A stretch of 23,498 nucleotides of DNA, from positions 1 through 23,498 of the IMG/VR virus record IMGVR_UViG_3300030012_001827, one strand, 5' to 3'. This document shows, one piece after another, positions 1,450 to 22,758 of the stretch. Made by a program: the position numbers and the translations under genes. This DNA is from a virus. Under the pieces are notes generated by a model. It was not told the DNA's origin. It ran no database searches and was given only the letters and a program-made list of their open reading frames with translations. Position 1 is the stretch's first letter; every line of letters begins with the position of its first letter.

Positions 1450-2909
1450 TCTTCATCACTCCTGTTATATTTTACATATACGCTTCTTCCAATTCGCATC
1501 TCATCAAATTTATGTCTAATTACTTCGTAGTGGCGGTATATTTGTGCTTGAGATTTCTTGGCTTTGTTTCTTACTTCTTTCAAGAATAAACTTTTATTGA
1601 CATATCCTTCATCGTCTTTGTTCATTTTATCATAAACATTAGTAAAGACCATTTCCAACGAATTTTCCGTTATGCTTTGCCTTCTCACTCTTAGGCTTCG
1701 TTCTAACCAGTCTACCAATGTCATATAACATTGTCGGACGATAGTAGCGGCCTGTCTAACATTATGACCTCCCACCTTGAAACGGTCTTCCTTGTTCTTG
1801 ATTGAAGGAGCCGAAGCAATACTACATAAGACAGACATTTTAATTAAAATCTTCGTCAAACGAGTTGTAAAGTTAGAAGCAATAGCCGCTACATCGGGTC
1901 TTGTATTCTGTAGATACGCTCTCATGTTTTCGTATTCTAATTGTAGAACATCGTTAAAATCCGGAGTAAAGGTCATAGTTTTGATGGGGTCGCCTCCTAC
2001 TTCATCGAACCTTTCTTTCGTGATTTGATACAATTTGATGAATGCCTTTACATATTTGTCAATGGGTGAGGTTACTTCCTCTACTGTTCCTGCTTTTGAA
2101 TTCTGTTCTGTTCTCATTTTGTGTTGTATGAACTCCGGAACTTCCCAAACATATAGAAGCATTCTTTGTAAGACACCCTTTTCTGCCATGATAGAGTTAA
2201 GATTACTTGGCGGGTAAGTCATAGCCAAAACAGAACGCTCACAATAACATTCCATGACTTGATTATCATAGGAAGTTAAAGCCTTGGAAATTACCCAAGA
2301 TTCACCGGATAAACTATTCATTAAGGTATTTAGATACACAATGGAATTTTCTTTATGTTGGCTTTGTTTGAAAATACCGGAGTATTCAAACTCATCCCAA
2401 TGGGCTAAACCGCTTCCTTCTAGAAGCCCCGGTTTTCTTTCCCAAGTGGTTTCTCCATCATCATCTGTATCTTTTGAATAGTTGCCAATCAATACTGAAT
2501 CGGTATAATCTGTTACACCAAAAGTATTGAAAATTCTTGTCATTGGTATTCCATCTTTATTGATAAAGGCAGGATGGGAGTTCAGTTCATTGATTTTCTT
2601 AAATGTTTTATTTGCTACTGGCCCAACAAAATTCCATAATGTTGATTTTCCTGTTCCTGAAGTTTGAACCCAACAAAAATGAATCCTAGAATCTTCATGA
2701 TTTCTACCATTTGGTATAATAATGAAGTCCTTTACTATTTGACCTAGTATAGTAAAGAAACTAATTCCTGCGGGTATATCATTGTAATGAGATACTTCTA
2801 CTGCTGATTTTTGAAAGTCTCTAACGACTCTCGGTAGTGCTTCTTTGAAAACCCCTGCGTTTGTTTCTAGGGATTCCATATATTTTTCTTCGTCATAATT
2901 TTCATTCAT
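1446..2909 (-). CDS. P-loop ATPase, candidate replicative helicase
   Basis: 487 aa. Walker A is TSGTGKST (83-90) and a Walker B-like strand is LAHWDEFEY (168-176). Possible sensor residues lie in SVLAMTYPP (226-234), with an arginine-finger candidate in LQRML (near 249). The C-terminal ~100 residues look helical with a winged-helix feel. General architecture recalls DUF3987-type or SF3-like viral helicases, but I cannot place it in a named family. It sits between the ERCC4 nuclease and the DEDDy exonuclease, downstream of the primase, and no MCM- or DnaB-like gene is visible here, so replicative helicase is a reasonable inference. GGTGA precedes the ATG by 4 bases; ATGA overlap with the upstream gene. 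Confidence 0.65.
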   Translation of the reverse strand: MNENYDEEKYMESLETNAGVFKEALPRVVRDFQKSAVEVSHYNDIPAGISFFTILGQIVKDFIIIPNGRNHEDSRIHFCWVQTSGTGKSTLWNFVGPVANKTFKKINELNSHPAFINKDGIPMTRIFNTFGVTDYTDSVLIGNYSKDTDDDGETTWERKPGLLEGSGLAHWDEFEYSGIFKQSQHKENSIVYLNTLMNSLSGESWVISKALTSYDNQVMECYCERSVLAMTYPPSNLNSIMAEKGVLQRMLLYVWEVPEFIQHKMRTEQNSKAGTVEEVTSPIDKYVKAFIKLYQITKERFDEVGGDPIKTMTFTPDFNDVLQLEYENMRAYLQNTRPDVAAIASNFTTRLTKILIKMSVLCSIASAPSIKNKEDRFKVGGHNVRQAATIVRQCYMTLVDWLERSLRVRRQSITENSLEMVFTNVYDKMNKDDEGYVNKSLFLKEVRNKAKKSQAQIYRHYEVIRHKFDEMRIGRSVYVKYNRSDEE

Positions 2910-3595
2910 ATTTTCACCTTCTCTTCCGAGTTTAATGTGGAGATTATTCTTTTGGCTAAGGTTTCTCCAATTCCTTCGATGGCTTGTAATTCATATTCTG
3001 AACACTCACCTATTTCCATAATAGAGCCATATTGTTTGATTAATTCTTTTGCTTTTTTAATTGATACTCCTTTAATACTGCTTAATAGGTCTAATCTTAA
3101 ATCGTCTGTTGTTAGTCTTTTGAATACTTGGGGTGCTATTGTGTTTCTTTCTACTGGTTTCATTTTACTTACTGCTGTTATTATTAATGCTGCTTCTTCT
3201 TCTGTTTGAACCCAAAAGGGCTTTATGTCTGTATCTAATACTATTCTCCCTATTGCTCCAAGAAATTTATTATTTAACATAATACTTCTAGTTCCTATTG
3301 GCATTTTACTGGGAGAGTTTGAAATTACATTATGGATTGCTTCTTCTAGTTCACCATAAATGATTACTATATTTGTTTGATAATGTCTATCCATGTTATC
3401 GAGTTGAGTCCACAATCTTTTAGTCATAACAGAACCTAAAAAATCTGTTGATGACTTTGCCTCAAAACAAACATCATCGTAGACATAATCACCTATCTCA
3501 ATCCATCTTTTTTCGCATGGTATTCTAAGTGCCTTAGCCTTCTGCATAACTAACTTATACAGTTTGGATTTTTCTCTTGAATCAATTACTAACAC
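2906..3595 (-). CDS. ERCC4/XPF-family structure-specific nuclease with helix-hairpin-helix domain
   Basis: 229 aa. The ERCC4 nuclease core is clear: IDSRE (residues 4-8), GDY (35-37), FEAKSS (44-49, where most members have ERK) and KRLWTQL (59-65). Two C-terminal helix-hairpin-helix motifs follow (about 173-187 around IKGVSIKKA and 205-219 around IEGIGETLA), the usual DNA-binding module of XPF, Mus81 and Hef. There is no helicase domain, so it resembles the short archaeal XPF form, which normally works with PCNA on branched or flap DNA. I place the start at GTG 3595, with GGAGG 7 bases upstream; the ATG at 3622 has no Shine-Dalgarno. It overlaps the primase by 14 bases. Confidence 0.88.
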   Translation of the reverse strand: MLVIDSREKSKLYKLVMQKAKALRIPCEKRWIEIGDYVYDDVCFEAKSSTDFLGSVMTKRLWTQLDNMDRHYQTNIVIIYGELEEAIHNVISNSPSKMPIGTRSIMLNNKFLGAIGRIVLDTDIKPFWVQTEEEAALIITAVSKMKPVERNTIAPQVFKRLTTDDLRLDLLSSIKGVSIKKAKELIKQYGSIMEIGECSEYELQAIEGIGETLAKRIISTLNSEEKVKI

Positions 3596-4622
3596 TAGGA
3601 AACCTCCAACATTTACCAACACAAAATCCTTCGCTAATTAACTTGTCACAATGGGGAGCATTATAGTTATTGAATACTGTAAACTTCGCATGTTTTCTTG
3701 TAGTATTCTTGTCCCAATCTAACCACATTGAGTCTGAATCAGCAAACACTCTTTCTAATTCCTCGACAACTAAGTTTAGAGTCTTTTCCTTGTCATCCAA
3801 TGTCTGTAAATCTTGATAGCCCGATATCAAATCTCGATACCAAGACACTAGATAGGCTCTTGCTATGTGAGAGGGATTCTCGACCATGACCGCATTATAC
3901 AGACATGGTAGCATAGGCAATTCACCAACATTAGAAGGCACAGAAACCTCACCTTTCATGGCCTCAATAGGGGGTGCTTTTGGAAAAATTACCTTCGTAT
4001 TTCCGCACTTTTTGAAGGGTATCATTCTTTGTCGTTGCGCTAAAAGTAGTATATCGTTAAGTTCATTCTTTAGGTCTTCTTTAACCAACGGTATGCAAAA
4101 ATAAGGATTTCCGTCTTTATCAGACGATGCCATATTAACAGTATTGGGAACTCTACGCAATCTAGTATGCTGTCCTACTCTATCATCAAGAGAATTATCT
4201 TTACCAACTTTAGAAACCAAATATTCCTTTATCTCTTTAAAGAAGGTTTGAATGTTTCTCATATCTTTGGTTTCTTCTCCAAAGATAAAAACATGGAATC
4301 CTCTTCCTGAAAAGAAGAAAGTATGTTCATAGTCTCTTTGATGAATTAAACTCATTACTATTTTTAAATCACGCCAAGCCATATCTAAATTATCTTCATG
4401 TGCATCAAAGTCTAAAAAGATTCTATCTCTTATTACAGAAGAATCTATTTTTGCTTTTTCAGAAAACTCTCTAAAATCATAGACTGTTGTATATACATTA
4501 GTTCTATTATTTTGTGCGTGAACAAAATCAGCGTATGCTTGTCTAGTTAGAACTATCTTTCTCGCCATCTGAGGAGCGTTCTTGATTTGACTTCCTGCCC
4601 AAACTTCTCTCGGATATCTCAT
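3582..4622 (-). CDS. archaeo-eukaryotic primase: PriS-like catalytic domain fused to a PriL-like Fe-S domain
   Basis: 346 aa. The N-terminal half has the AEP motifs: FLDFDA (DFD at 71-73), SGRGFHVF (105-112) and DDRVGQHTRLRRVPN (146-160). The C-terminal ~110 residues look like the PriL C-terminal domain: LPCLYNA (C240), an H-x2-R pair (HIAR), a WLDWDK-like region, then PHC (C325), GFC (C334) and GKC (C338), four cysteines placed as 4Fe-4S ligands. One polypeptide would therefore carry both primase subunits' key parts, as reported for some archaeal mobile elements and nanoarchaea. It makes the primers for the polymerase. Start at ATG 4622 is set by GGAGG 8 bases upstream; further upstream there is only an in-frame TTG. 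Confidence 0.88.
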   Translation of the reverse strand: MRYPREVWAGSQIKNAPQMARKIVLTRQAYADFVHAQNNRTNVYTTVYDFREFSEKAKIDSSVIRDRIFLDFDAHEDNLDMAWRDLKIVMSLIHQRDYEHTFFFSGRGFHVFIFGEETKDMRNIQTFFKEIKEYLVSKVGKDNSLDDRVGQHTRLRRVPNTVNMASSDKDGNPYFCIPLVKEDLKNELNDILLLAQRQRMIPFKKCGNTKVIFPKAPPIEAMKGEVSVPSNVGELPMLPCLYNAVMVENPSHIARAYLVSWYRDLISGYQDLQTLDDKEKTLNLVVEELERVFADSDSMWLDWDKNTTRKHAKFTVFNNYNAPHCDKLISEGFCVGKCWRFPSVSN

Positions 4623-4908
4623 TGTTATTACCTCCAAAATTAACTGTGGCTGTGCTTAACATTTGTTTGATTACTCCTGCTACATCAGCCTGTATTTGTA
4701 TTAAACCCATATCTCTAAATTCATCTTCAAAAGTGTGTCCTAACATATTTTCATTTATTCTTAACTCTCTTACCAAGTTAAATCTTTCAGTAAGTGAAAG
4801 TTCGATGTATATTTCTTTGGCTAATAAACCAATAGAATTTGCTAAATCACTAACTTCTAAAAAAGACCAGTTCTTGGATAATACCTTTTGTTTAATTATA
4901 TCCTTCAT
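4543..4908 (-). CDS. unidentified protein, 121 aa, overlapping the primase start
   Basis: ATG 4908 with GGAGG 7 bases upstream. The first ~80 residues look helical (SFLEVSDLANSIGLLAKEIY, FNLVRELRINENMLG); the last ~30 are polar and charged (NNNEISERSLGRKSNQERSS), probably disordered. No motif recognised. The final 80 bases overlap the start of the primase gene in another frame, so the disordered tail may simply be what the overlapping frame allows. Position directly before the primase suggests a replication accessory, but the sequence does not show it. Confidence 0.65.
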   Translation of the reverse strand: MKDIIKQKVLSKNWSFLEVSDLANSIGLLAKEIYIELSLTERFNLVRELRINENMLGHTFEDEFRDMGLIQIQADVAGVIKQMLSTATVNFGGNNNEISERSLGRKSNQERSSDGEKDSSN

Positions 4909-5097: not shown

Positions 5098-6003
5098 TCA
5101 CACCCATGTATCTGCCCCTGCCGCATCACAAAGACCAAAATAACTACAATGAGAACAAGTTTTGTAAAACCACTTAGTAGGAAATTCCTTTTCTATGTAT
5201 GCTGAAATAAGCCTAGCAATATTATCTCTTACTGATGTCATTGAGCGAGTCTTGATAGGCTCAACTTGAACATGGTTAGAAACGGGATAATACCAACCCC
5301 AATGACTCACTTCCATATCTCTTGTTAAGTTGAACTTTTCAAGAACTTCATCACTAGCGTTTTCAATCAGCAGTTGATAGAAAGCCATTTCTTTTCTCAT
5401 ACTAGTCGCTTTGTAATCTTTCCATGCTCCGGTTTTATATTCAAAAGGAATAAGTTTACCATCCTCAATAAAAATACGGTCAATGATACCTTGAATATGA
5501 ATAATATAGTCTCTATCTAGTGGAAACTTTTTAGAGTAATCAGCAGGTATTGTTATTTCTGCATCAAACAATCCTTCGTTTACAATAGGAAGATATTCGT
5601 TGGTTTTTTCTTCAGACCTAGACTCGATAAATCTTTGCGCCTCAAAAGCCGCTACTGTTAAAGAAACATCATAATAATCATCTACTGGCATTAGACTTGT
5701 AGCATATTCTAGAACTTCGGTATTATTCATCAATTCTGCTTTCTTAACATCAAACTCATGAAAAAATGCTTCCCTATGATTATGTAAGATTGTTCCTTTT
5801 CTCATGGCTTCTGTTTGGTCTTGTGGCCTTCTTTCAACATAATTGAATTCATACTTCTTAGGACACCAATCAAAAGCACCTAGCGAGGATTTGGTAATTT
5901 TTAGTATTGGCTTAGAAGGGTCATCATAGTTTTCCGGTTGCCATTGATAACTGTAGTCTTTCATCGAGTTGATTCTCGCTTTGTATTTTTCATCGGTATT
6001 CAT
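5098..6003 (-). CDS. Cas4/RecB-like PD-(D/E)XK nuclease with Fe-S cysteines
   Basis: 301 aa. Features in order: C47 within FDWCPKKYEF; an H74 motif (GTILHNH); the catalytic pair D175 (GIIDRIF) and E188-x-K190 (PFEYKTG); a QxxxY-like motif helix (EMAFYQLL, 205-212); and a C-terminal cluster C283, C286, C292 (CSHCSYFGLC). One early plus three late cysteines is the Fe-S arrangement of Cas4 and AddB. Such enzymes are single-strand exonucleases that make ends for recombination; here it may work with the RecA-fold ATPase at 10310. No CRISPR array or cas1/cas2 is present, so an adaptation role is not supported. Start ATG 6003, ATGA overlap, AGGGGT upstream. Confidence 0.87.
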   Translation of the reverse strand: MNTDEKYKARINSMKDYSYQWQPENYDDPSKPILKITKSSLGAFDWCPKKYEFNYVERRPQDQTEAMRKGTILHNHREAFFHEFDVKKAELMNNTEVLEYATSLMPVDDYYDVSLTVAAFEAQRFIESRSEEKTNEYLPIVNEGLFDAEITIPADYSKKFPLDRDYIIHIQGIIDRIFIEDGKLIPFEYKTGAWKDYKATSMRKEMAFYQLLIENASDEVLEKFNLTRDMEVSHWGWYYPVSNHVQVEPIKTRSMTSVRDNIARLISAYIEKEFPTKWFYKTCSHCSYFGLCDAAGADTWV

Positions 6004-6188
6004 TGGTAATACCCCTTTCTTTTCATTTCATCAACAAATGATGTAAACTCGCCATCTAACATATCTACATACCAAAGAAGAAAATCCTCAAAGGACATAT
6101 CTTCTTTAACAGTTAATTGAAACTTACCAAATTCATAAGTCCACTTTTCTCTTATCTTATCTAATCCTTGTTTATTTTTTTCTTTCAA
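6000..6188 (-). CDS. unidentified small acidic protein, 62 aa
   Basis: Helical and charged (LDKIREKWTYEFG, then FEDFLLWYVDMLDG). No family recognised. Start choice matters here: GGAGG at 6200-6196 is 7 bases before a TTG at 6188 that shares TTGA with the stop of the polymerase C-terminal gene, while the ATG at 6194 is only one base from the Shine-Dalgarno. I prefer TTG because PCNA and the gene at 19363 use the same TTGA junction. The Cas4-like nuclease follows by ATGA overlap. Confidence 0.6.
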   Translation of the reverse strand: MKEKNKQGLDKIREKWTYEFGKFQLTVKEDMSFEDFLLWYVDMLDGEFTSFVDEMKRKGYYQ

Positions 6189-7099
6189 AACCATTCCTCC
6201 AAACTTTTCTGTATTCTTCCTGTTCTTATTGCTGATAAGTCCCAACCCATAGACTCATAAACGGGTTTTGCCTTATCTATAACTTGTTGTGCATAGTGTT
6301 CCCAATCCGGTGTAAAGCCCTTAAAATCAGCAAAAATAGTTCCCGATATAAATTCAGCAGGTTTTATCTCCTTGGTTAAAGGATTTACATAAGTCATGTT
6401 TGAATTCTTAACTTTTAAGAATACATAACTATCATCGAAATTAGTGCTGTTATTTTGCCAAGCGTTGATTACACCCGCTACACCCGAACCAATAGTAGCC
6501 TTTTTTCCTTCCACAGTAGTAAAGGAAGAGACGGGTTCACCACACTTATGAATTCCATCCTTACCCTCATTCTGACCGCAAACTGTAATTTTTGTTAATT
6601 CTTTTAGATTATATTTTCTACTACAATCCGGGCATTTTACGGTAAATCTTTCCGGTCTTAGGCGGGTTCTCTTAACTAATTTCTTGAAATCGTAGTTACC
6701 ATTTTTTACACTTACATATGTTCTGTGTAAATAAGCATTTATTTTCTCCATTGGTTCTTTGTTAGCCCACATCTTCAAGACTTTGGTTTGGACTTCTTTA
6801 GCCATTTTAGTTTCGCTAACTCTCTTGGCAATAAATCCAGTCATGGTAAATTTAGGCTCATCTAGCCATTCTCCATCTTCCCAAGTAATCATACCCGCAT
6901 TTCTATTTTTGACTGTTCCCACACCTAGAGCATCAAAATACTTCTCAAACTCTAAGACTACGGGGTGTTCTTGCAGACCCAAGATATTAGGGAAGTGTTC
7001 TCTAACACTTGCTTCTATCTCTTTGATAGCCTCTTGAGCCTTCTCTACTGAATCTATTTGCACATAGATTGAATCTGTATGTCCGTAAACTACTTTCAT
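6185..7099 (-). CDS. DNA polymerase B, C-terminal fragment (motif C, end of palm, thumb)
   Basis: 304 aa, beginning almost at polymerase motif C, YGHTDS (residues 5-10). The usual sequence is YGDTDS: the key catalytic Asp (second D) is kept, the first is His. Then come VKNRNAGM (the KKRYAG-like region), a zinc-binding insert with C156, C159, C174 and C186 (CPDC ... C ... C), and the classical family B end with QKSLEEWF. It completes the gene at 7849-9525; four small genes lie between. Both halves should assemble into one enzyme, as the split polymerase of Methanothermobacter does. Start ATG 7099 follows the previous stop by one base; the upstream TTG is not needed. Confidence 0.9.
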   Translation of the reverse strand: MKVVYGHTDSIYVQIDSVEKAQEAIKEIEASVREHFPNILGLQEHPVVLEFEKYFDALGVGTVKNRNAGMITWEDGEWLDEPKFTMTGFIAKRVSETKMAKEVQTKVLKMWANKEPMEKINAYLHRTYVSVKNGNYDFKKLVKRTRLRPERFTVKCPDCSRKYNLKELTKITVCGQNEGKDGIHKCGEPVSSFTTVEGKKATIGSGVAGVINAWQNNSTNFDDSYVFLKVKNSNMTYVNPLTKEIKPAEFISGTIFADFKGFTPDWEHYAQQVIDKAKPVYESMGWDLSAIRTGRIQKSLEEWF

Positions 7100-7100
7100 T

Positions 7101-7247
7101 TTAACCAATCCTTTGGTGTGTGATTATCCCTATTCTTTTTCCATTGACATATAATGAGACTACATCATTATGAATCATAATAGTAGTGACATCATCTACA
7201 TATCTTTTAGCCCAACCAATGAGTTCTTGTTGAGTTTTTTTATTCAT
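7101..7247 (-). CDS. unidentified protein, 48 aa
   Basis: ATG 7247 (ATGA overlap with the gene before) to TAA 7103-7101, one base before the polymerase C-fragment ATG. It has a predicted helix (TQQELIGWAKRYVDD) followed by strands (TIMIHNDVVSLYVNGKRIGII), a neat small alpha-beta unit. GGTGGGAATGT upstream supplies a Shine-Dalgarno. Its location between the two halves of the polymerase is the only clue to its role. Confidence 0.6.
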   Translation of the reverse strand: MNKKTQQELIGWAKRYVDDVTTIMIHNDVVSLYVNGKRIGIITHQRIG

Positions 7248-7504
7248 GACATTCCCACCCTAGTTGGTGCTTTTATTAGATTGATAGGATAAAAGTCACC
7301 CTTATCTCTAAGATATTCTTGTATCTCACATACTGCTCTTGCCAATTTAGCATTATCTATTTCAAATAAAATATCTAGGTCTTTCTCCAAACCCTTTATT
7401 TTATTTTGTGAATCTGCTATTTGCTTCTCTAGTCTTTGTGTTTCCTGTAGGGAAAACTTTTCTAATTTTGCTAGTCTTTTTTCTATTTCATCTATATCGT
7501 TCAT
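7244..7504 (-). CDS. coiled-coil protein, 86 aa
   Basis: Residues 1-50 are a continuous heptad-like coiled coil (IEKRLAKLEKF, LEKQIADSQNKIKGLEKDLD), then a second helix (AKLARAVCEIQEYLRDKG) and a short tail. Probably an oligomerisation or scaffolding protein. No enzymatic motif. GGTGG lies upstream of the ATG; both junctions are ATGA overlaps. It is one of four small genes inserted between the two polymerase parts. Confidence 0.7.
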   Translation of the reverse strand: MNDIDEIEKRLAKLEKFSLQETQRLEKQIADSQNKIKGLEKDLDILFEIDNAKLARAVCEIQEYLRDKGDFYPINLIKAPTRVGMS

Positions 7505-7626
7505 ATTACCACCGTCACTATTGTTATTATTGTTATTATATTTACAATGTTCACCATCATCAATATCTTGTTACTTCTTGCTATCATAGCGAGCAATTCT
7601 TCCAACAATTCATTTGTTCTGTCCAT
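7501..7626 (-). CDS. tiny membrane protein, 41 aa
   Basis: ATG 7626 (or 7629) to TGA 7503-7501. An acidic amphipathic start (MDRTNELLEELLAMIARSNK) leads into a long hydrophobic stretch of Ile, Val and Thr (about residues 21-41), one transmembrane helix ending at the C-terminus. It overlaps the gene before by about 17 bases and the next by ATGA. The exact ATGA junction and lack of any other reading for this stretch support it, but the low-complexity ATT/GTT-rich codons leave some doubt. Confidence 0.5.
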   Translation of the reverse strand: MDRTNELLEELLAMIARSNKILMMVNIVNIITIITIVTVVI

Positions 7627-7852
7627 CATCATAATAGTCCTCTTCCATATCTGTTTCTGAATAATCTGGATTAAGAAATGATAGGCTTAATTTACTCGAA
7701 TCTTGATTAATGCCCTGTTCTATATTGATAATAGAAGCGTTACGCTTTAGGTTATTCATCATTTGGAATATCTCTTCTACTTCTTGTAAAGTAATATCCC
7801 ATGTTTCTTCTGTATCGTAGTTTACTTTTACCGTTACATATTTTGTTTTCAT
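7610..7852 (-). CDS. unidentified acidic protein, 80 aa
   Basis: Begins with strands (KYVTVKVNYDTEETWDITL), then a helix (EVEEIFQMMNNLKRNASI), then another strand region (KLSLSFLN), and ends in an acidic tail (ETDMEEDYYDDG). No family recognised. The ATG at 7852 shares ATGA with the stop of the polymerase N-terminal gene, and GGAG in the polymerase's last codons lies 8 bases upstream, so its translation is probably coupled to the polymerase. Confidence 0.65.
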   Translation of the reverse strand: MKTKYVTVKVNYDTEETWDITLQEVEEIFQMMNNLKRNASIINIEQGINQDSSKLSLSFLNPDYSETDMEEDYYDDGQNK

Positions 7853-9525
7853 GTTTTCAACTCCTTTGCTTTAAATGCGGCTAATCTAATTGCTTCTCTA
7901 GCACTAGCAGTAATACTAGCGGCTAGTTTTGGATTAGCCCAACTAAATCCTGTAAATCCAATGATGCCGTAGAAAGATGCAGATAGGCGTTTTACTGCCA
8001 TTTGATTATTATACCATTTCATATATTCACCATTTGGTTTTCCTCTAGCCTCTTTCATTTTGGCTTTGTATTCATTTCTTAATTCTTTAAGTTCTAATAC
8101 TGCTCTAGGTAATAGGCCCAACTTATCTGTTTTGAAGTAAATCATATCTTCGCCTATAGGTTCGCTAAAATCTCTAGGCGTTAGAATATTAACGCCAAAC
8201 TCCGTAGGCTCATCAGAAATAGTTTCCCAACTAATATTTCTAGCAATCATCATACTGGGATATAGACCGGCAAAATCAAAAGCGGCTACATTAAGATGTA
8301 ATCCGTTTGTTCCTTCGCTAAGTGGGTCATATATCATAGCCCCTTGATATGCTTGTTTCTTTTCTTTCTTGTTTCCTGTTGGTGCTTTCCACCAAGCATT
8401 TCTCATGAAGTAAATACTACCCATGTGAGAGGCAAAGAAGCAAGCATCAAATGGTGCTTTTAGTAGTCTTTGAAGTGCTAGAATAGCCTCACTACAATAG
8501 TTTGATTCATCAATTTCTACCATTAGTTTTACATCTAAAACAGCATATTCAAGATAAGTTTCTGTATCTTCTAGCCATGCTCTACGATAAAACTCGTTTG
8601 GGTCGGGGAACTTTTCAGATACTAATTTGTTCTTACCTAATACTTCTTCAGATACATAATCTAAAGATAGCGAAGGTAATGTTCCTCTTTGTGAATCATT
8701 CCATTGTCGCTCAAAAGCCATATCAAGATTCAAAGTTATTCTTCCACCGATAGGTTGTTCTATTTGTGAAAAGCCCTTTTCATGATACATAAATTGATAG
8801 CCGTCTCTTTTAGTATTCTTTACTCCTTTAATAAAACCAATAGGCGACATAATCAATGGATTAAGCCCTACTGCACATGCTCTTTCAAGAAGTTTAGGAA
8901 CATCAGCAAAGTTTCCAAACCAAGCAATCAACATATCGGGGTCTTTTACAACCATGGTTGTCATAAAGTCTTCAAGCATATGTTTTTCACTATAAAATAC
9001 ATTTTTGACAATATCGCCATTACTCCATTTGAGGGTTTCATTAACCAACTCTTTGCTTTCTTCGGGAAACCATACCCATTGATAGTATTGCTTATCGTAA
9101 TTATCATACGCTACAATAGTGGTAATCTTACCATCATGTTCTCCACCTTGTTGCCATTCCATATCCCAATACCACTTACGCATATCATATTCAGGCATAT
9201 CATGTAATTCATCTACACAGTATCTAAACTGATAAGGCACATCGGCCTCATATGTTTTAGAGAACATATCTTTGGCTTTTCTAATATCATAAGAAGTATC
9301 TACATATACTCTTTTTAGCGGAATTCCATCAATGTTTATCCAATCGCCTCTAACATAATCAAAGTCTCTTTCGATATATTTGCTAGGGCGATAAGTAGGT
9401 GGCTCTTTTTCAGATTCTTCTACATAGAAGTATGGCCTAAATTCTACTTGCTCAAACTTTCTTTCGTTGTTTTCTCTCCACGCTTTGTATATTGTTTTAC
9501 CATCGTCCATTCTACTTATTATCAT
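7849..9525 (-). CDS. DNA polymerase B, N-terminal fragment (exonuclease, motifs A and B)
   Basis: 558 aa. Exonuclease motifs: Exo I YWDMEW (D121, E123), Exo II AWFGNFADVP (D208), Exo III YAVLD (Y327, D331), so proofreading looks intact. Polymerase motif A is FDFAGLYPSMM (D417) and motif B is KRLSASFYG (K512 to G520). The protein stops at AKELKT (558), just where a normal polymerase would run straight into motif C; motif C is in the gene at 6185-7099. No intein-like residues are seen at the break. Start ATG 9525 with GAGG upstream. This is the catalytic core of the viral replicase, working with the PCNA gene immediately upstream. Confidence 0.93.
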   Translation of the reverse strand: MIISRMDDGKTIYKAWRENNERKFEQVEFRPYFYVEESEKEPPTYRPSKYIERDFDYVRGDWINIDGIPLKRVYVDTSYDIRKAKDMFSKTYEADVPYQFRYCVDELHDMPEYDMRKWYWDMEWQQGGEHDGKITTIVAYDNYDKQYYQWVWFPEESKELVNETLKWSNGDIVKNVFYSEKHMLEDFMTTMVVKDPDMLIAWFGNFADVPKLLERACAVGLNPLIMSPIGFIKGVKNTKRDGYQFMYHEKGFSQIEQPIGGRITLNLDMAFERQWNDSQRGTLPSLSLDYVSEEVLGKNKLVSEKFPDPNEFYRRAWLEDTETYLEYAVLDVKLMVEIDESNYCSEAILALQRLLKAPFDACFFASHMGSIYFMRNAWWKAPTGNKKEKKQAYQGAMIYDPLSEGTNGLHLNVAAFDFAGLYPSMMIARNISWETISDEPTEFGVNILTPRDFSEPIGEDMIYFKTDKLGLLPRAVLELKELRNEYKAKMKEARGKPNGEYMKWYNNQMAVKRLSASFYGIIGFTGFSWANPKLAASITASAREAIRLAAFKAKELKT

Positions 9526-9548
9526 TGTTATTCCTCATTGGTATTCAC

Positions 9549-10313
9549 TTATCCGTTTACTGTTGGTGCTTTCAGTAAAAGCCTATCATCGGCTACTATT
9601 AGTATTGGAAACTCATCTTTTACATAGAAGTTCAATAATTGGTGATTATCAAAGAAAGCATATAATGGCCCACTAAACTCTACCGTTGCACTTTCACCGC
9701 TATTAAACACTGGCGTAACATTCTCGCTATATTTACTAGAGGTGTTATTTCCACTAGAAAAAGTAGAAACTCCTTCATCATAGTTTAACTTGTAAATTCC
9801 AGTCTTTGCTAATTCACAAGATTTTATGGTGTTTTTGAATTGGTCTACACTAAGAGTAAATGCTCCTTCAAATGGTTTCTTGTTAAAAGAAAACATAGTT
9901 TGTGGATTAGCCTCATATGTAACATGACTTAACAGTGTCCTTACTCTACTAATTGCTTCAAACCCACTATGTATTGCTACTTTAGGGATATTAGCATCTT
10001 TATTCTCTTGAGTAACACTAACTACATCTCCTACATTTATCTTAATATCGCCAGTAAATGATTTTAGAAACGGTGTTAATTCTTTAGCATCAGCAATAAA
10101 ATTACCGTCTTTTTCTCCATCTACTTCAAGTGTAATGCCTACGATAAAAGTAGCGTCACCGTTCCAAATACTTAGAGTATTATCTGTTAGTTCAGCCCAA
10201 AATAAAGAACCAATACTAGAATTAGAAAACCCATTTGTAGTCAAATGCTTTCCCTTTACTTGTATCTTATCTAGGGCATTCTGCAATTCTTTACTATCGG
10301 TTGTAAATATCAA
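9549..10313 (-). CDS. PCNA sliding clamp
   Basis: 254 aa, the usual PCNA length. The N-terminus (FTTDSKELQNALDKI), repeated beta-strand character, and the final part (SGPLYAFFDN, LNFYVKDEFPILIV, LLLKAP) match a PCNA fold, whose last strand normally ends in LAP. The trimer would encircle DNA and tether polymerase B, ERCC4 nuclease and ligase. The start is a TTG at 10313-10311: it shares TTGA with the stop of the RecA-like gene, has GAGAGG 6 bases upstream, and no ATG is close. It lies just upstream of the polymerase, a natural pairing. Confidence 0.85.
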   Translation of the reverse strand: MIFTTDSKELQNALDKIQVKGKHLTTNGFSNSSIGSLFWAELTDNTLSIWNGDATFIVGITLEVDGEKDGNFIADAKELTPFLKSFTGDIKINVGDVVSVTQENKDANIPKVAIHSGFEAISRVRTLLSHVTYEANPQTMFSFNKKPFEGAFTLSVDQFKNTIKSCELAKTGIYKLNYDEGVSTFSSGNNTSSKYSENVTPVFNSGESATVEFSGPLYAFFDNHQLLNFYVKDEFPILIVADDRLLLKAPTVNG

Positions 10314-11131
10314 ATCAATCCCTCTCTAAGTTCCGGAACACCACTCCATTTGACTTTACCACTACCGACTTCTAGAGTTTCCCATGTTTTACCAACAAGA
10401 GAAGTGTTTGTTTTACTGCTTTCTAATGTGCATTTGTAAACAACATCTCCTTTCTTTAGAGTTCTTTTAGTGTTAATTACTTGGAAAAGATAGTCTCCCC
10501 AGTTGTGCCAATTAGGTTTAGTTCCTACAACTTCACCGCTTGCTCCATAATCAGCCTTAGCATGAGTTATGTATATTTGGTCACACTTTAGATTCTTACA
10601 CATCATCAAAAGAGAATAGAAAGGAGCGTTTCTTTTACCCCATTCAAACTTCATCTTCTGTGGTTTTCCGATTTTAGAACTGCCTGTAACATGAAGTGTG
10701 CAGCAATCTAGCCACTTATCTACTCCATCAAATACAAAGAGAATATCCTCTCCTTGTTCGATTTGCTCTTTAACTGTTAAAACAAAATCTTCTGAATTTG
10801 CTTCGGACTTTTGTATATCTAATTCACCATTAGAATTTCTAACTTCAGGGTTCCAAAGAATAATTCTATCTGTCATTTCATGGTTTTGTCTCCATGTAGG
10901 CTCGCAACCATCATCCCAATCTAAAACATAAATCTGCTTATCAGGAAAATCTAAAGCAATACCGCTTTTTACAGTCTTGGGTTCTCCCCAAATACCGCAA
11001 ACTAGTTTGTTATTTCTAGCCAACCTAGCCTCGGTTTGTTGCTTTAACTTATCTCTAAACGCAGTAACCCTAGCATTGTCCTGCAATTCCTTATCTACTT
11101 TCATTCCGCTTGTTATTCCCATTATTTTCAC
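10310..11131 (-). CDS. RecA-fold ATPase resembling phage Sak4/AAA_24 proteins
   Basis: About 273 aa. P-loop region GIWGEPKTVKS (near residues 47-57), a following strand IYVLDWDDG (68-76), Walker B ILFVFDGVDKW (131-141), and ITHAKADYG later. The overall pattern fits phage nucleotide-binding proteins of the Sak4 type, RadA/RecA relatives used in single-strand annealing or recombination. The Walker A is unusual: GEPKTVKS lacks the Gly normally before Lys. Candidate starts are ATG 11134, GTG 11131 (GTGA overlap, AGAGG 4 bases upstream) and ATG 11122; I chose GTG on the junction pattern. A role in recombination-dependent replication, with the Cas4-like nuclease, is inference. Confidence 0.75.
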   Translation of the reverse strand: MKIMGITSGMKVDKELQDNARVTAFRDKLKQQTEARLARNNKLVCGIWGEPKTVKSGIALDFPDKQIYVLDWDDGCEPTWRQNHEMTDRIILWNPEVRNSNGELDIQKSEANSEDFVLTVKEQIEQGEDILFVFDGVDKWLDCCTLHVTGSSKIGKPQKMKFEWGKRNAPFYSLLMMCKNLKCDQIYITHAKADYGASGEVVGTKPNWHNWGDYLFQVINTKRTLKKGDVVYKCTLESSKTNTSLVGKTWETLEVGSGKVKWSGVPELREGLI

Positions 11132-11388
11132 CATTCCTCTATTATTTCATCTATATCTATTTCTACTTTCTTTCCTTTAATTTTAGACCACATCTCAAGT
11201 AAGTCTTTGAGAGATTCTTCGTCTTTACAAACATATCTTGCATCCTTACTACCAATGTGTAATTTAGCCCAATATGTTCCTGCTATCTTCTCATTTTCTT
11301 TCCATGTGATAAAGTCTACATTATCTAAATCAATCATATAACTGTTTGATTTAATCAAATATCTATTTGCTTTTATATCTCCTAACAT
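11128..11388 (-). CDS. unidentified protein, 86 aa, similar in layout to its neighbour
   Basis: Pattern: strand (YMIDLDNVDFITWKEN), strands (YWAKLHIGSKDARYVC), a helix (SLKDLLEMWSKI), then an acidic end (DIDEIIEEW). The order strand, 'V-x-x-I-x-W', strands, helix recalls small beta-sandwich domains that bind through a single helix, but no family is certain. It looks like a distant copy of the protein at 11382-11612. It overlaps that gene by 7 bases and the RecA-like gene by GTGA. Confidence 0.6.
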   Translation of the reverse strand: MLGDIKANRYLIKSNSYMIDLDNVDFITWKENEKIAGTYWAKLHIGSKDARYVCKDEESLKDLLEMWSKIKGKKVEIDIDEIIEEW

Positions 11389-12981: not shown

Positions 12982-13893
12982 TCACAATAATTGACCCACC
13001 ATCCATGATAGTAACAGTTTGGGGGTCATTGTATTGGAACGCCATTCACTTTCTCCTATTGTTCTTAAAAACTTAAATTTGACATTATTATCTAGCCCTT
13101 CTGCGCTGATAATAGCCTCATGTAATCCAATACAAACCTCTCTTACGGTTTGTCCTTCATACAATAAGTCGTGAATATCATTAAGCACATTGGTATCTTT
13201 ATTTATTATTTGCATTATAATTTTCTTGTAATCCTCAAGAGCCACTTCCACTTGCTTCCGAAGGGTAGAGTCACTAGCCTTGGCCGCTTGAATTTCCGTG
13301 ATTGCCCTACGAATATCACCGTTCATGGCATATATAAAGGGGTTCAACTCCTCTCTTGAGAACCTCGTTATGTTTTCTTGTTCAAGAATACTCTCTATAA
13401 CAGTAAGCATACTTTCATTAGAAACTGGTTTAAAATGATAATTTGCACATCTGCTTTGTAGCGCAAAAATGATTTTATTCCTATCGTTACAAGTAATAAT
13501 AAATCTAATATTGCTGGCATATCTTTCCATGATTCTTTTCAATGCGTTTTGTGCATCATTAGTCATTCCATCCATTTCATCTAATAGACACATTCTAAAT
13601 GGAACATCACCATAAGAACTGCTTTGTGCAAAGTTCTTGATTTTAGTTCTCACAGTTTCTAGTCTTCTATCATCACTAGCATTTATTTCTATAAAATTAT
13701 TAGCAAATCCATCACCCAACATAGTCTTAGCAAGAACTAAACAAGCACTTGTTTTACCATTACCGGGATTTCCGTAAATAAGAAGATTAGGCATATTTCC
13801 TTCTTCTTTCCACGAATGAGCATCCATTACAAAATGCTCTTGTCCTATGATATCTCCTAATTTACTTGGTCTGTATTTTTCTGTCCATAACAT
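12982..13893 (-). CDS. replication factor C small subunit (clamp loader AAA+ ATPase)
   Basis: 303 aa, slightly shorter than the ~320 aa usual for archaeal RfcS. RFC boxes: WTEKYRP near the start, IGQEHF, Walker A GNPGNGKT (41-48), Walker B LLDEMD (103-108), sensor 1 ITCND (N136), and the RFC-specific SRC motif LQSRC (145-149), with GDIRRAI as sensor 2. It opens PCNA and loads it at primer ends. No large subunit (RfcL) is seen here, so the virus may use the host's or work as a homomer. ATG 13893, GGAGG 7 bases upstream, TAATG junction with the gene before. Confidence 0.93.
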   Translation of the reverse strand: MLWTEKYRPSKLGDIIGQEHFVMDAHSWKEEGNMPNLLIYGNPGNGKTSACLVLAKTMLGDGFANNFIEINASDDRRLETVRTKIKNFAQSSSYGDVPFRMCLLDEMDGMTNDAQNALKRIMERYASNIRFIITCNDRNKIIFALQSRCANYHFKPVSNESMLTVIESILEQENITRFSREELNPFIYAMNGDIRRAITEIQAAKASDSTLRKQVEVALEDYKKIIMQIINKDTNVLNDIHDLLYEGQTVREVCIGLHEAIISAEGLDNNVKFKFLRTIGESEWRSNTMTPKLLLSWMVGQLL

Positions 13894-16440: not shown

Positions 16441-16896
16441 TCACTTCATGTATTCCTCATTAGAAGGCCAATAACCATTAGGTGCTGTATTAGTTTCTAG
16501 CCAAAAAATGTGGGCGGCACTGATAGTCTTGGTGTTCCGGTTTAAAGCGTTTTCTTCTGCATTCGCAAGGAGATTCAATAATGCTGTTTCTACCCATTCA
16601 GCGAGGAAATATCTTGCTGACCTTGAAACTCTTAAATCAATATTTTCTTTAATTAGTTTAGAAATATTAATTGTGGTCTTTGGTTTTATTTTTACTTCTT
16701 CCTTTTTAGGAGTAATTAAAATATCATTCTCAACATACGGGCATTCCTCTATAGGGATTATTTTTGGTTTACCACCTGCACCATCATTAATTACATTTCT
16801 AAGAACAGCATTTCCGTTTTCTATTCTCACACAACGATATGTTTGAGGTAGTCCTCGCTTATCTTTTATAATAGTCATTTGGCCTTGCTCTATCAT
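16441..16896 (-). CDS. histone-fold protein (archaeal-histone-like domain in a 151-aa protein)
   Basis: Residues about 77-134 align without gaps to archaeal histones as I remember HMfB: INISKLIKE, then LRVSRSARYFLAEWVE (RVS..AR..LA...E matches), ANAEENA, and NTKTISAAHI (KTI.A..I matches). These cover the three helices and both loop strands of the fold, including the conserved Arg before VS and the Lys-Thr pair. Archaeal histones are ~66-70 aa; this has an extra ~75-residue N-terminal domain of mixed strands with no known family, linked by a Lys-rich stretch (KKEEVKIKPK). It could compact viral DNA or act as a histone-like regulator. ATG 16896, GAGG 7 bases upstream, ATGA overlap with the ligase gene. 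Confidence 0.8.
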   Translation of the reverse strand: MIEQGQMTIIKDKRGLPQTYRCVRIENGNAVLRNVINDGAGGKPKIIPIEECPYVENDILITPKKEEVKIKPKTTINISKLIKENIDLRVSRSARYFLAEWVETALLNLLANAEENALNRNTKTISAAHIFWLETNTAPNGYWPSNEEYMK

Positions 16897-18425
16897 TCTA
16901 ATGCCTCTACATCTTCTAAAGTATTACAATCTGAAGCAAACTTATCATCTCTAATTCTATTACATCTAGGAAATCTAAGACCTATATTATTATTAGAATC
17001 TCTAGTGACTAAATCTGCACTAACTTCTAAAACAGTTCTTGGTAAAAAAGAATATGTTCCGTTATCTACATTAGAAATAATAGTTCTTAATTCTCTTGTT
17101 AATCTAAGTAAATCTTCATCACTAAATCCAGTTCCTACAGAACCAATAGAAATCCATTCTCCTTCATTTCTTACACCAACGCCAAATGTAGCAAAAACAT
17201 TTGACTTAGCACCTTCACCGTATTTAGCATTAAGAATAGCAACATCTAATTCAATTCGTGGAGGCTTATATTTAGCCCATCCTGCGCTTCTTTTACCTGC
17301 TTCATAGGGTAAGGTAGTATCTTTGATAATAATGCCCTCAAAACCATCGTTAATGGCTCTATTATAGAATGCTATAACATCACCACCAATTTCCATTCTG
17401 TGTGCTTGGTCGGGTAATTTTTTCATATATTGTAATCTAGTAAGATACTCTAAATCCATAATAGTCTTATCTCCCATCTTGAGGCAATCAAATATAACCC
17501 ACTTGACTTTAACCTTCTCTCTTGCTTCCGCATGGTCTTTAGAATGAACTCTTGTTCCCATTAGTTTATGTTCAGCAGGTGAACCATCATCTTTAATTGG
17601 ATATATTTCACCATCAAGAATACAATCTACTTCATATTGTCTAACTGTTTCTACAACATCTTGGAACTGTGGTGTAACTACCTTACCTTTACGATTAAAG
17701 ATAATCACACTATCTCCTTCTTTGTGTATCTGATAGCGATTACCGTCATACTTGTAATCTACAATTTTATTCTCCGGCCACTTATTTATAGGCACATCTT
17801 TAGCCAACATAGGAGCAACGAATGTTCCATGGGATAAAACCGTAGGTGGGTTTTCACCCATTTCATAATAGATTGCTGTTGTTTCAATATTACTCAAATT
17901 AAGGTGTTTCTTTACTTCGCTAACTTTCTTATTATAGTATTTAGCCATAATCTTGACTACTGTTCCTTTGTTAATTCCATTTCTAGGAGTTCTAAGTAAA
18001 TAACGAATAAACCATCTGCGCTCTAATGCCGACATATCTCTAATAGCAAAATAAAAAGTATCATAATTATTTGAAGTGATGCTACCATAATCCATTTCCA
18101 ATAGACGCTTAACATTAGCAATACTCAAAGGATTGCCTTGTGTTTCTGCTGAAGAATCTAGATAATACAATGCATCTCCTAAATCATTGTGTGCATTGTA
18201 ATTACCTTCTATCTCATCTTCAAAGATATCAAACGCCTTTGCTATCCATTTCTTTGCTTTTGCTAAGGCTATATTATTGGCAATTAATTCATCCTTAGAA
18301 AGAATAGAAAGCACTAGAGGAACTTCATCAAAATTCTGTAAGTCTCTTGATATTCTTGTTATCTGCTGTGTTGGTATTAGGCCGTCCGTTGATTCTAACA
18401 TTCGGCTCATCATTTTCCATGTCAT
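16893..18425 (-). CDS. ATP-dependent DNA ligase
   Basis: 510 aa. N-terminal DNA-binding domain (SRMLEST ... LLRTPRNGINKGTVVKIMAKYY). Catalytic motif I is DYKYDGNR with the adenylated Lys at 225. Further motifs follow: LDGEIYP (motif III region), FDCL (IIIa), EGIIIKD (IV), GWAKYKP (V). The OB fold at the end contains FPRCNRIRDDK. Order and length fit the archaeal/eukaryotic LigI-type family (usually ~550-600 aa). It joins Okazaki fragments using ATP, probably with PCNA. Start ATG 18425 has GGAG 10 bases upstream; the preceding gene overlaps by 98 bases. Confidence 0.93.
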   Translation of the reverse strand: MTWKMMSRMLESTDGLIPTQQITRISRDLQNFDEVPLVLSILSKDELIANNIALAKAKKWIAKAFDIFEDEIEGNYNAHNDLGDALYYLDSSAETQGNPLSIANVKRLLEMDYGSITSNNYDTFYFAIRDMSALERRWFIRYLLRTPRNGINKGTVVKIMAKYYNKKVSEVKKHLNLSNIETTAIYYEMGENPPTVLSHGTFVAPMLAKDVPINKWPENKIVDYKYDGNRYQIHKEGDSVIIFNRKGKVVTPQFQDVVETVRQYEVDCILDGEIYPIKDDGSPAEHKLMGTRVHSKDHAEAREKVKVKWVIFDCLKMGDKTIMDLEYLTRLQYMKKLPDQAHRMEIGGDVIAFYNRAINDGFEGIIIKDTTLPYEAGKRSAGWAKYKPPRIELDVAILNAKYGEGAKSNVFATFGVGVRNEGEWISIGSVGTGFSDEDLLRLTRELRTIISNVDNGTYSFLPRTVLEVSADLVTRDSNNNIGLRFPRCNRIRDDKFASDCNTLEDVEALE

Positions 18426-21040: not shown

Positions 21041-22546
21041 TTATTCCTCCAATAATACTGCAACATCTGTAGTGTAGAACAATTTTGCTATTGACATAGC
21101 AGTTAAGAAACTGTTCTTAGTTACCTTAACAGGGTCAAATACTCCCGCTACTTCCAAATCCATGTAATCGCCAGTAAGAGCATTGAATCCTAAAGAACCC
21201 ACTAAATCATCATCATGCCAACTACCTTCATGGTTACTATTGCTTAATAGCGTGTTATATGGAGCATAAAGGGAATGCGCTAAGAAATTGAACTTTGTTT
21301 CTATCTTATCACCTGCATGGGCTAATGAGGTTCCGCCACCCAAAACAATCCCTTCTGCTAATGCCGCTTTAGTAGCATTAAGAGCATCGTCTAATCTTTC
21401 CTTCTTTTCTCTTAGTTCTAAGGAAGAAGAAGCACCAACTTTTATTGTTGCCACGCCACCCTTTAGTCTAGATATTCTAGATTTAATACGGGCTTTGTCA
21501 AAGCCTTCCATGTCATCTAATTGACCCTTTAGAAGTTTTATTTGTTTTTCAGCATCACCGACACCGCCAACTACAATTGTTTTTTCCTTAGTTACTGTAA
21601 TATTTTCACAACTACCAAAGTCACTCAATACAACATTAGTCGGGTCGTCTTTGCTTTCTTGAGTAAATAACTTACCATCTACTAATGATTGAATATCGGC
21701 TAATTCATCTAGTTGCTTATCTCCAAAATTAGGTGCAAGTATGGCACAACATTCCACCGTTTGATTCATTAGATTCATAACTAAATTGTTTAATGCTGAA
21801 CCCGACATACCGCCACAGAAAATAACTAGCGGCCTACTATTAGAGGAAGCCAGTTCTAACATAGGAATCAAATCCTTAAAATTCTTAAAATGAATATTAG
21901 AAATAAAGATAAGAGGATTACTAAACACAGTTCTTCCATTAGCGGTGTTAGCCATTAAATGACTAATATAACCTTCAGTAAGTTCCATACCCTCTCTTAT
22001 CACCAGTTCTGTATTATGTGATTTAGATTCTTCTACTGTAACAATACCGTCTCTACCTACTTTAGCCAAAGCATCACTAATTAGTTTACCTAGAACCCTA
22101 TCGTTGTTTGCCGCTATTGTAGCGACTTCAATAATATCAGCATCTTGTATTTCTGTAGCCATTGAATCTAATTGCTCTACCACTTGATTTGTAAAATCAT
22201 CAAGAAGACCCATGAATTCATGAGTGGTTAAATCTAGTTTGCTGTTGTGATTATGTATTGCATTACAAAATGCTTGTGCTAAAATACAAGCAGTGGTAGT
22301 TCCATCACCGCTTCCTTCTTGTGCTTTATGTGCTAGATTTTGAACCATCTGAATACCCATCTGAACATAAGGGTCTTCGCTACTAATATGTCTTGTAATG
22401 GTTACTCCATCGTTAATAATAACAGGAGGATTACCCTGTAGAATAACTGTTTTGGCTTGTGGGCCAAGTGTAGGGCTAACAGTATTAGCAACTAAATTAA
22501 TTCCTTGTAGTAGTTTTTCTTTTACTTCTTTACCGTGTATAATCAT
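21041..22546 (-). CDS. GroEL-type (group I) chaperonin
   Basis: 501 aa, shorter than bacterial GroEL (~545 aa). Group I signatures: TVSPTLGPQAKTVILQ at the start, INDGVTIT (D46), GSGDGTTTA (D81), ISRLKGGVATIKVGA and LDDALNATKAALAEGI (D387), with EGIVLGGG after it. So the ATPase Asp residues matching GroEL D52, D87 and D398 are all present. It is not thermosome-like. The Gly/Met tail of GroEL is absent; it ends AVLLEE. A GroES-like gene lies just upstream. It probably folds capsid or other viral proteins, as phage chaperonins do. ATG 22546 (ATGA overlap, GGTGG upstream) rather than 22579. Confidence 0.92.
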   Translation of the reverse strand: MIIHGKEVKEKLLQGINLVANTVSPTLGPQAKTVILQGNPPVIINDGVTITRHISSEDPYVQMGIQMVQNLAHKAQEGSGDGTTTACILAQAFCNAIHNHNSKLDLTTHEFMGLLDDFTNQVVEQLDSMATEIQDADIIEVATIAANNDRVLGKLISDALAKVGRDGIVTVEESKSHNTELVIREGMELTEGYISHLMANTANGRTVFSNPLIFISNIHFKNFKDLIPMLELASSNSRPLVIFCGGMSGSALNNLVMNLMNQTVECCAILAPNFGDKQLDELADIQSLVDGKLFTQESKDDPTNVVLSDFGSCENITVTKEKTIVVGGVGDAEKQIKLLKGQLDDMEGFDKARIKSRISRLKGGVATIKVGASSSLELREKKERLDDALNATKAALAEGIVLGGGTSLAHAGDKIETKFNFLAHSLYAPYNTLLSNSNHEGSWHDDDLVGSLGFNALTGDYMDLEVAGVFDPVKVTKNSFLTAMSIAKLFYTTDVAVLLEE

Positions 22547-22758
22547 TCTTCCACCAACCTTGTTTGGATTCCTCTCCACAAATCATATGCTTGTTTCTTT
22601 CCGGGAATTGTATTCAATAGGGTTTTTATCATCATCAGTAAAAAATCTAATTCACCAATCAAAAGCCTATCGTCCATTTCTTCTCTAAATAAATCTCCAT
22701 CTTCTGTTACATCAATCATTCTTATCAAAATATCTTCGTATAATTCTATATCATTCAT
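22543..22758 (-). CDS. unidentified protein between the GroES and GroEL genes, 71 aa
   Basis: Acidic helical protein: IELYEDILIRMIDVTEDGD, RLLIGELDFLLMMIKTLLN, then KKQAYDLWRGIQTRLVEE. No family recognised. ATG 22758 and its stop both form ATGA overlaps, tying it tightly between the two chaperonin genes, so it could be an adapter or assembly factor; that is inference. GGTGAT lies 3 bases before the ATG. Confidence 0.65.
   Translation of the reverse strand: MNDIELYEDILIRMIDVTEDGDLFREEMDDRLLIGELDFLLMMIKTLLNTIPGKKQAYDLWRGIQTRLVEE

Follow-up and report, generated by a model that had tools for sequence, protein, structure and literature searches.

The family B DNA polymerase (PolB) of a marine virus was found to be divided between two genes, here called N and C, which are best read as encoding an obligate two-subunit replicase whose gene was broken once, in place, by an insertion and then kept in that state; this reading is considered likely. 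The window analysed is the whole of a 23,498-nucleotide stretch (IMG/VR record IMGVR_UViG_3300030012_001827, positions 1 to 23,498). Translation of a single gene run would yield both proteins, which would assemble, unjoined, into a complete polymerase-exonuclease, with N supplying the exonuclease, motif A and the fingers with motif B, and C supplying motif C, the thumb and the PCNA tether. Coding DNA would have been inserted once, in the ancestor of a magrovirus clade, exactly between the Y and K codons of the sequence ELGY-KV and immediately ahead of the strand running into motif C. After the break the last codons of N would have gained a ribosome-binding site and C a start codon, and the gap would then have been visited by small genes and homing-type nucleases, in and out. 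An insertion of the homing kind may also have made the original break. The position of the break, its single origin, the conserved motifs, selection, flanking synteny, gene turnover in the gap and one nuclease-bearing recombination tract were all shown by sequence comparison; physical assembly of N and C and their role as the working replicase are inferred.

Its gene content identifies the window as part of a magrovirus-type genome, that of a marine tailed virus of archaea. Magroviruses have tailed-virus genomes of ~90–110 kb and share a gene set of PolB, PCNA, clamp loader, archaeal primase, ATP-dependent ligase, ERCC4 nuclease and chaperonin (PMC10160649, PMC10768690). All of these markers were found in the window, the primase by inspection, and the assignment rests on the match of the gene run, ligase and chaperonin to the published set (PMC10160649, PMC10768690). 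Most genome-size relatives measured 94–97 kb, and archaea are thought to be the hosts of this large ocean virus group. The run on the minus strand begins with an AAA clamp loader (12982-13893), a Sak4-like ATPase (10310-11134) and, directly upstream of the N gene, a PCNA-like sliding clamp (9549..10313; phrog_947 processivity factor, 2e-4). The C gene is followed by a small gene, a Cas4/PD-(D/E)XK nuclease (5098..6003; Pfam PDDEXK_1, 4e-16), a PriS-like primase (3582-4637), whose sole profile match was phrog_9660, of unknown function, and an ERCC4 nuclease (2906-3622). The ATP-dependent ligase (16893-18425) and the chaperonin (21041-22579) lie further upstream. The closest named phage records were haloviruses at ~25% identity, and the C half gave no match among named phage records. 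A cellular origin of the polymerase was considered and rejected, as a GTDB scan returned only viral-type contigs in bacterial MAGs (56%, 43%) and distant PolB, nearly all of the latter below 30% identity. Two magrovirus-like contigs, L244 and L245, are binned in GTDB into bacterial MAGs (Maricaulis, Altibacter); the split C start is seen in L244, and L245 is unsplit.

Both PolB open reading frames, their motifs and the four small frames between them were present as described in the initial annotation. The N gene (7849..9525, minus; 558 aa) encodes the N-terminal and 3'-5' exonuclease domains, palm motif A and fingers motif B, and the C gene (6185..7099, minus; 304 aa) encodes palm motif C, a thumb with a four-cysteine insertion and a PIP tail. 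N matched the Pfam families DNA_pol_B (2e-20, profile positions 35-193) and exo1 (5e-5), and C matched DNA_pol_B (1e-8, profile positions 220-369), so that the two pieces are consecutive on the same profile. When aligned to complete family B polymerases, as the initial annotation had proposed, the proteins proved complementary, N covering residues 14-530 and C residues 536-684 of Pfu polymerase (chain 3a2f, PDB profile search). The AlphaFold models had pLDDT values of 90.7 for N and 92.2 for C; the top Foldseek matches of N were Thermococcus PolB, and C likewise matched PolB structures. The C gene very probably starts at the ATG at 7097-7099 and not at the mechanical TTG at 7108, since the TAA of the preceding gene lies immediately before this ATG and relatives begin at the same codon, mostly with ATG and in some lineages with GTG or TTG.

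The exonuclease residues D121, E123, D208, Y327 and D331 were invariant in 59 sequences, together with D417 and Y422 of motif A and K512, Y519 and G520 of motif B, which reads KRLSASFYG (NS to AS). Motif C, YGHTDS (7070..7087, minus), occupies residues 5-10 of the C protein, and its H7-T8-D9-S10 was invariant across the 59 sequences of alignment A2. N and C thus hold between them the exonuclease and polymerase domains and the motifs A, B and C of a family B DNA polymerase. Motif C usually contains two Asp residues; the first is His throughout the 59 sequences of A2, whether split or unsplit, which places this change before the split. The haloviruses HF1 and HRTV-27 have YGDTDS at this position. 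The C protein closes with a predicted PCNA-interacting (PIP) box, QKSLEEWF (6188..6211, minus), and the pattern Q-x-x-[LIMF]-x-x-[FWY]-[FWY] closes the C-terminus of all 86 split C proteins. The insertion in the thumb region is zinc-ribbon-like and spans residues ~155-185 of C; its four-cysteine pattern was present in 77 of 86 split C proteins compared to 0 of 56 unsplit proteins. A related Cys-rich insert occurs in some others and is absent from the deepest lineage, L230.

Comparison with unsplit relatives located the break to a single codon boundary. The unsplit gene reads AFKAQELGY-KVIYGHTDS, while the split pair reads AFKAKELGI followed by a stop codon and, in C, M-KVVYGHTDS, which puts the break precisely at the Y/K boundary of ELGY-KV, with no residue lost and a start codon added. 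The halves had been described as losing almost nothing; compared with the unsplit relatives, nothing at all is missing. In the structural models N ends just past a helix at 532-555 and C opens with the strand leading into motif C. A Shine-Dalgarno-like site, AAGGAG (7861..7866, minus), lies within the last N codons and serves the next gene, which starts with an ATG that shares bases with the N stop codon (7849-7852). A motif of this kind was found in 76/76 distinct split N 3' ends (AAGGAG itself in 61), and the overlap of N with the following gene by ATGA was found in 59 of the 76. None of AAGGAG, AGGAG or GGAGG was flagged at the homologous positions of the 24 unsplit genes listed. The signals upstream of the C start were more varied than those at the N end. 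A rise in silent-site conservation at the junction was considered and discarded, being small (0.69 over the last 20 N codons vs 0.46 in unsplit genes) and at least partly due to the ribosome site.

In IMG/VR scans that used N, C and other pieces as queries, both halves could be read at 140 loci; these include overlapping pulls of one contig and represent 99 distinct gap sequences. The same break point was present in every one of the 140 loci of this clade, which come from many metagenomes, so that it is neither chance nor an assembly error. The survey for unsplit versions that had been suggested at the outset gave 76 unsplit genes, comprising a sister clade of 38 loci, each a single ORF, together with a more distant marine group and two haloviruses. 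No unsplit gene was found inside the split clade by an IMG/VR-wide pattern scan for an uncut junction with YGHTDS, a scan that is not fully exhaustive as the pattern needs a pre-Lys codon that does not start with A. In a tree of 62 polymerases the split occupied one side of one branch and required one change (SH-aLRT 99), and the lowest polymerase identity within the split clade was 49%. The split, as placed by this tree, arose once at the base of one large magrovirus clade, which bears out the earlier suggestion that it is old. Split and unsplit viruses share the flanking order Sak4-PCNA-PolB-nuclease-primase, including the adjacency of the PCNA-like clamp to PolB and the position of the nuclease, indicating that polB was interrupted where it stood.

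The gap between N and C varied from 79 to 2819 bp in the 99 distinct sequences, with a median near 890. In the window it holds four small genes on the minus strand. The first, cl0 (7610..7852, 80 aa), has no known function and occurs in the gaps of the window and of 62 relatives; it is followed by cl1 (7501..7632, 43 aa), which is very highly conserved and has a hydrophobic C-terminal half, by the coiled-coil-like cl2 (7244..7504, 86 aa), with 59 family members in the gap, and by cl6 (7101..7247, 48 aa), confined to close relatives (8 loci). The first three are nearly always in the gap and in that order in the subclade of the window; other subclades have different small genes there, many with zinc-ribbon-like cysteines, and the contents differ between the main split lineages. 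Extra genes enter mostly directly behind N. The conservation of cl1 exceeds that of the polymerase (28 invariant columns in 29 sequences). In some unsplit genomes this gene is located ~6 kb upstream of polB, and in the deepest split lineage, whose gap contains only two small ORFs, one of them winged-helix-like, it stands between the nuclease and primase genes. The trio cl0/cl1/cl2 was rejected as the original insert on account of these outside positions of cl1, which indicate that the trio entered the gap later. The winged-helix family cl3 was likewise rejected as a multicopy mobile family, as it was present as a single copy beside the polymerase halves in 3 of 13 genomes. Judged by these differences in content, the gap is a site of turnover and the small genes of the window are late arrivals.

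A survey of the gap for endonucleases, also proposed in the initial annotation, identified HNH genes in L001, L005 and L129, a GIY-YIG gene of the MUG113 type in L007 and a weaker HNH-like ORF in L070. In some relatives such nuclease genes adjoin the 3' end of N. Recognisable nucleases were present in only about 5 or 6 of the 99 distinct gaps, and the gap of the window has none. This scarcity, and the differing gap contents of the main split lineages, count against assigning the first break to any of these elements. The suggestion that the mobile element has gone fits the window, but several relatives retain HNH or GIY-YIG genes, including the near-identical L001. The gap of another relative, L147, contains 620 bp into its length an HUH Rep domain of the Viral_Rep type (PF02407, 4e-17; L147:4979-5320, minus), a type that is typical of small ssDNA viruses.

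L001 and the window form a filled and empty pair, with 99.6% identity in N and 100% in C, yet only L001 has an HNH gene in the gap. With the HNH-bearing L005 taken as donor, the informative sites of L001 were window-like in the N gene (77 window-like vs 10 donor-like), donor-like in the first ~600 bp of the gap (12 vs 53), window-like in the C gene (43 vs 5) and again donor-like after the C gene (9 vs 80). The tract in the gap is as homing with co-conversion would leave it, and is taken as support rather than proof; the second switch, after C, shows that recombination is common, so that the tract need not be due to homing. When positions 6185-9525 of the window were compared with L006 and L007, third-position identity was high from about codon 250 of N to codon 50 of C and then dropped, a pattern that points to past recombination across the gap.

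The two-subunit enzyme would stand equally if illegitimate recombination had dropped small viral genes into polB and homing nucleases had arrived later, an origin of the break to which we give somewhat less than an even chance. It accords with the sparse gap of the deepest split lineage and with the location of cl1 outside the gap in unsplit genomes, and the split of a T4-like phage polymerase may predate the invasion of its nuclease gene (PMC2988022). The codon-exact insertion beside an active-site motif is instead what homing elements favour (PMC2988022). It is doubtful that the small genes, above all cl1, are extra polymerase subunits and that the gap is a polymerase-subunit operon instead of a parking place for mobile genes.

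The preferred reading takes N and C as separate chains that act together, and it is very improbable that an intein, intron or frameshift joins them into one chain after all. A joined chain finds some support in archaeal PolB, where motif C is known to harbour inteins. It also finds some in Nanoarchaeum, whose split PolB comes with a split intein (PMC4104785). The gaps of the window and its relatives, however, contained no intein family in Pfam, no Rfam match was obtained in 5900-9600, and the smallest gap is 79 bp. No reading frame was preferred among the gap lengths (34/34/31), and the position that follows the break is mostly occupied by Lys rather than Cys, Ser or Thr; both observations speak against an intein as the origin of the break. 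The gap is moreover full of short ORFs, often overlapping start to stop, and its ends carry only stop, ribosome-site and start signals.

The ratio dN/dS for N and C ranged from 0 to 0.22 over 11 pairs, indicating purifying selection on both halves. A search of 12 genome-size relatives for PolB found only the two halves in 11 of them, so that the second complete polymerase that would have made the pieces relics was not encountered in these genomes. The twelfth record, L078 (184733 bases), contains two pairs of PolB halves and is perhaps two virus genomes joined in assembly. The low dN/dS, the invariant residues, the PIP box and the single PolB pair together argue for a working two-chain enzyme, in which binding between the chains would be expected. 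The presence of two pieces instead of one and the His in place of the first Asp of motif C could be taken as signs of decay, with another enzyme replicating the genome and N and C surviving only as relics. Both pieces are nevertheless under selection, their catalytic residues are invariant, the His is shared with unsplit relatives and no other member of PolB, the one family searched, accompanies them in 11 of 12 genomes, which makes decay highly unlikely. An assembly error or chimera in this contig is refuted by the identical break in independent contigs and has a negligible probability.

The clade thus provides a replicase of single origin that was cut beside a catalytic motif and has stayed so throughout a large set of ocean viruses, whose unsplit sisters allow comparison. 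It opens tests of how an essential enzyme tolerates fission and of whether homing nucleases cause it, and the natural two-part polymerase could be tested as a split enzyme tool.

A magrovirus PolB in two labelled parts has appeared before, in the legend to Fig. 1 of the 2023 ICTV profile, where PolB-NTD and PolB-CTD are marked for Poseidoniales virus YSH_150918 (Aoguangviridae, Magrovirales; PMC10768690). Judging from the figure label this is very probably the same split as in the window; the profile gives the label only, and its text is without the position of the break, its origin, the gap contents or the unsplit relatives (PMC10768690). No dedicated analysis of the magrovirus split was found in the literature searched, which did not extend to Philosof et al. 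2017. The present analysis adds the exact break, the single origin, the unsplit sisters, the gain of a ribosome site, gene turnover in the gap and an empty/filled pair.

Among other tailed viruses, the T4-like Aeromonas phages 25 and 44RR divide PolB between two neighbouring genes, gp43A and gp43B, separated by an insert. The insert of phage 25 encodes a homing endonuclease, and its two polymerase parts purify together and show activity (PMC2988022). The closeness of the break to phage insertion sites drawn in the initial annotation is not supported by this case, as the 44RR polymerase is cut between motifs A and B, compared to between B and C in the window. The T4-like split is also reported for a few phages (PMC2988022), while the magrovirus split spans a large clade. 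In Aeromonas phage Aeh1 a different essential enzyme, that of nrdA, is split by the homing nuclease gene mobE and is active as two chains (PMC2988022). The PolB3 of the Methanobacteriales (Methanothermobacter) is an archaeal PolB in two genes like that of the window, but it is cellular and its split is attributed to faulty intein removal (PMC4104785), and the window has no trace of an intein. Nanoarchaeum equitans PolB is also encoded by two genes, but these are non-adjacent and their products are joined by a split intein (PMC4104785), an element absent from the window. As similar splits are known elsewhere, the magrovirus polymerase is an unusually clear and old example and not a new kind of thing.
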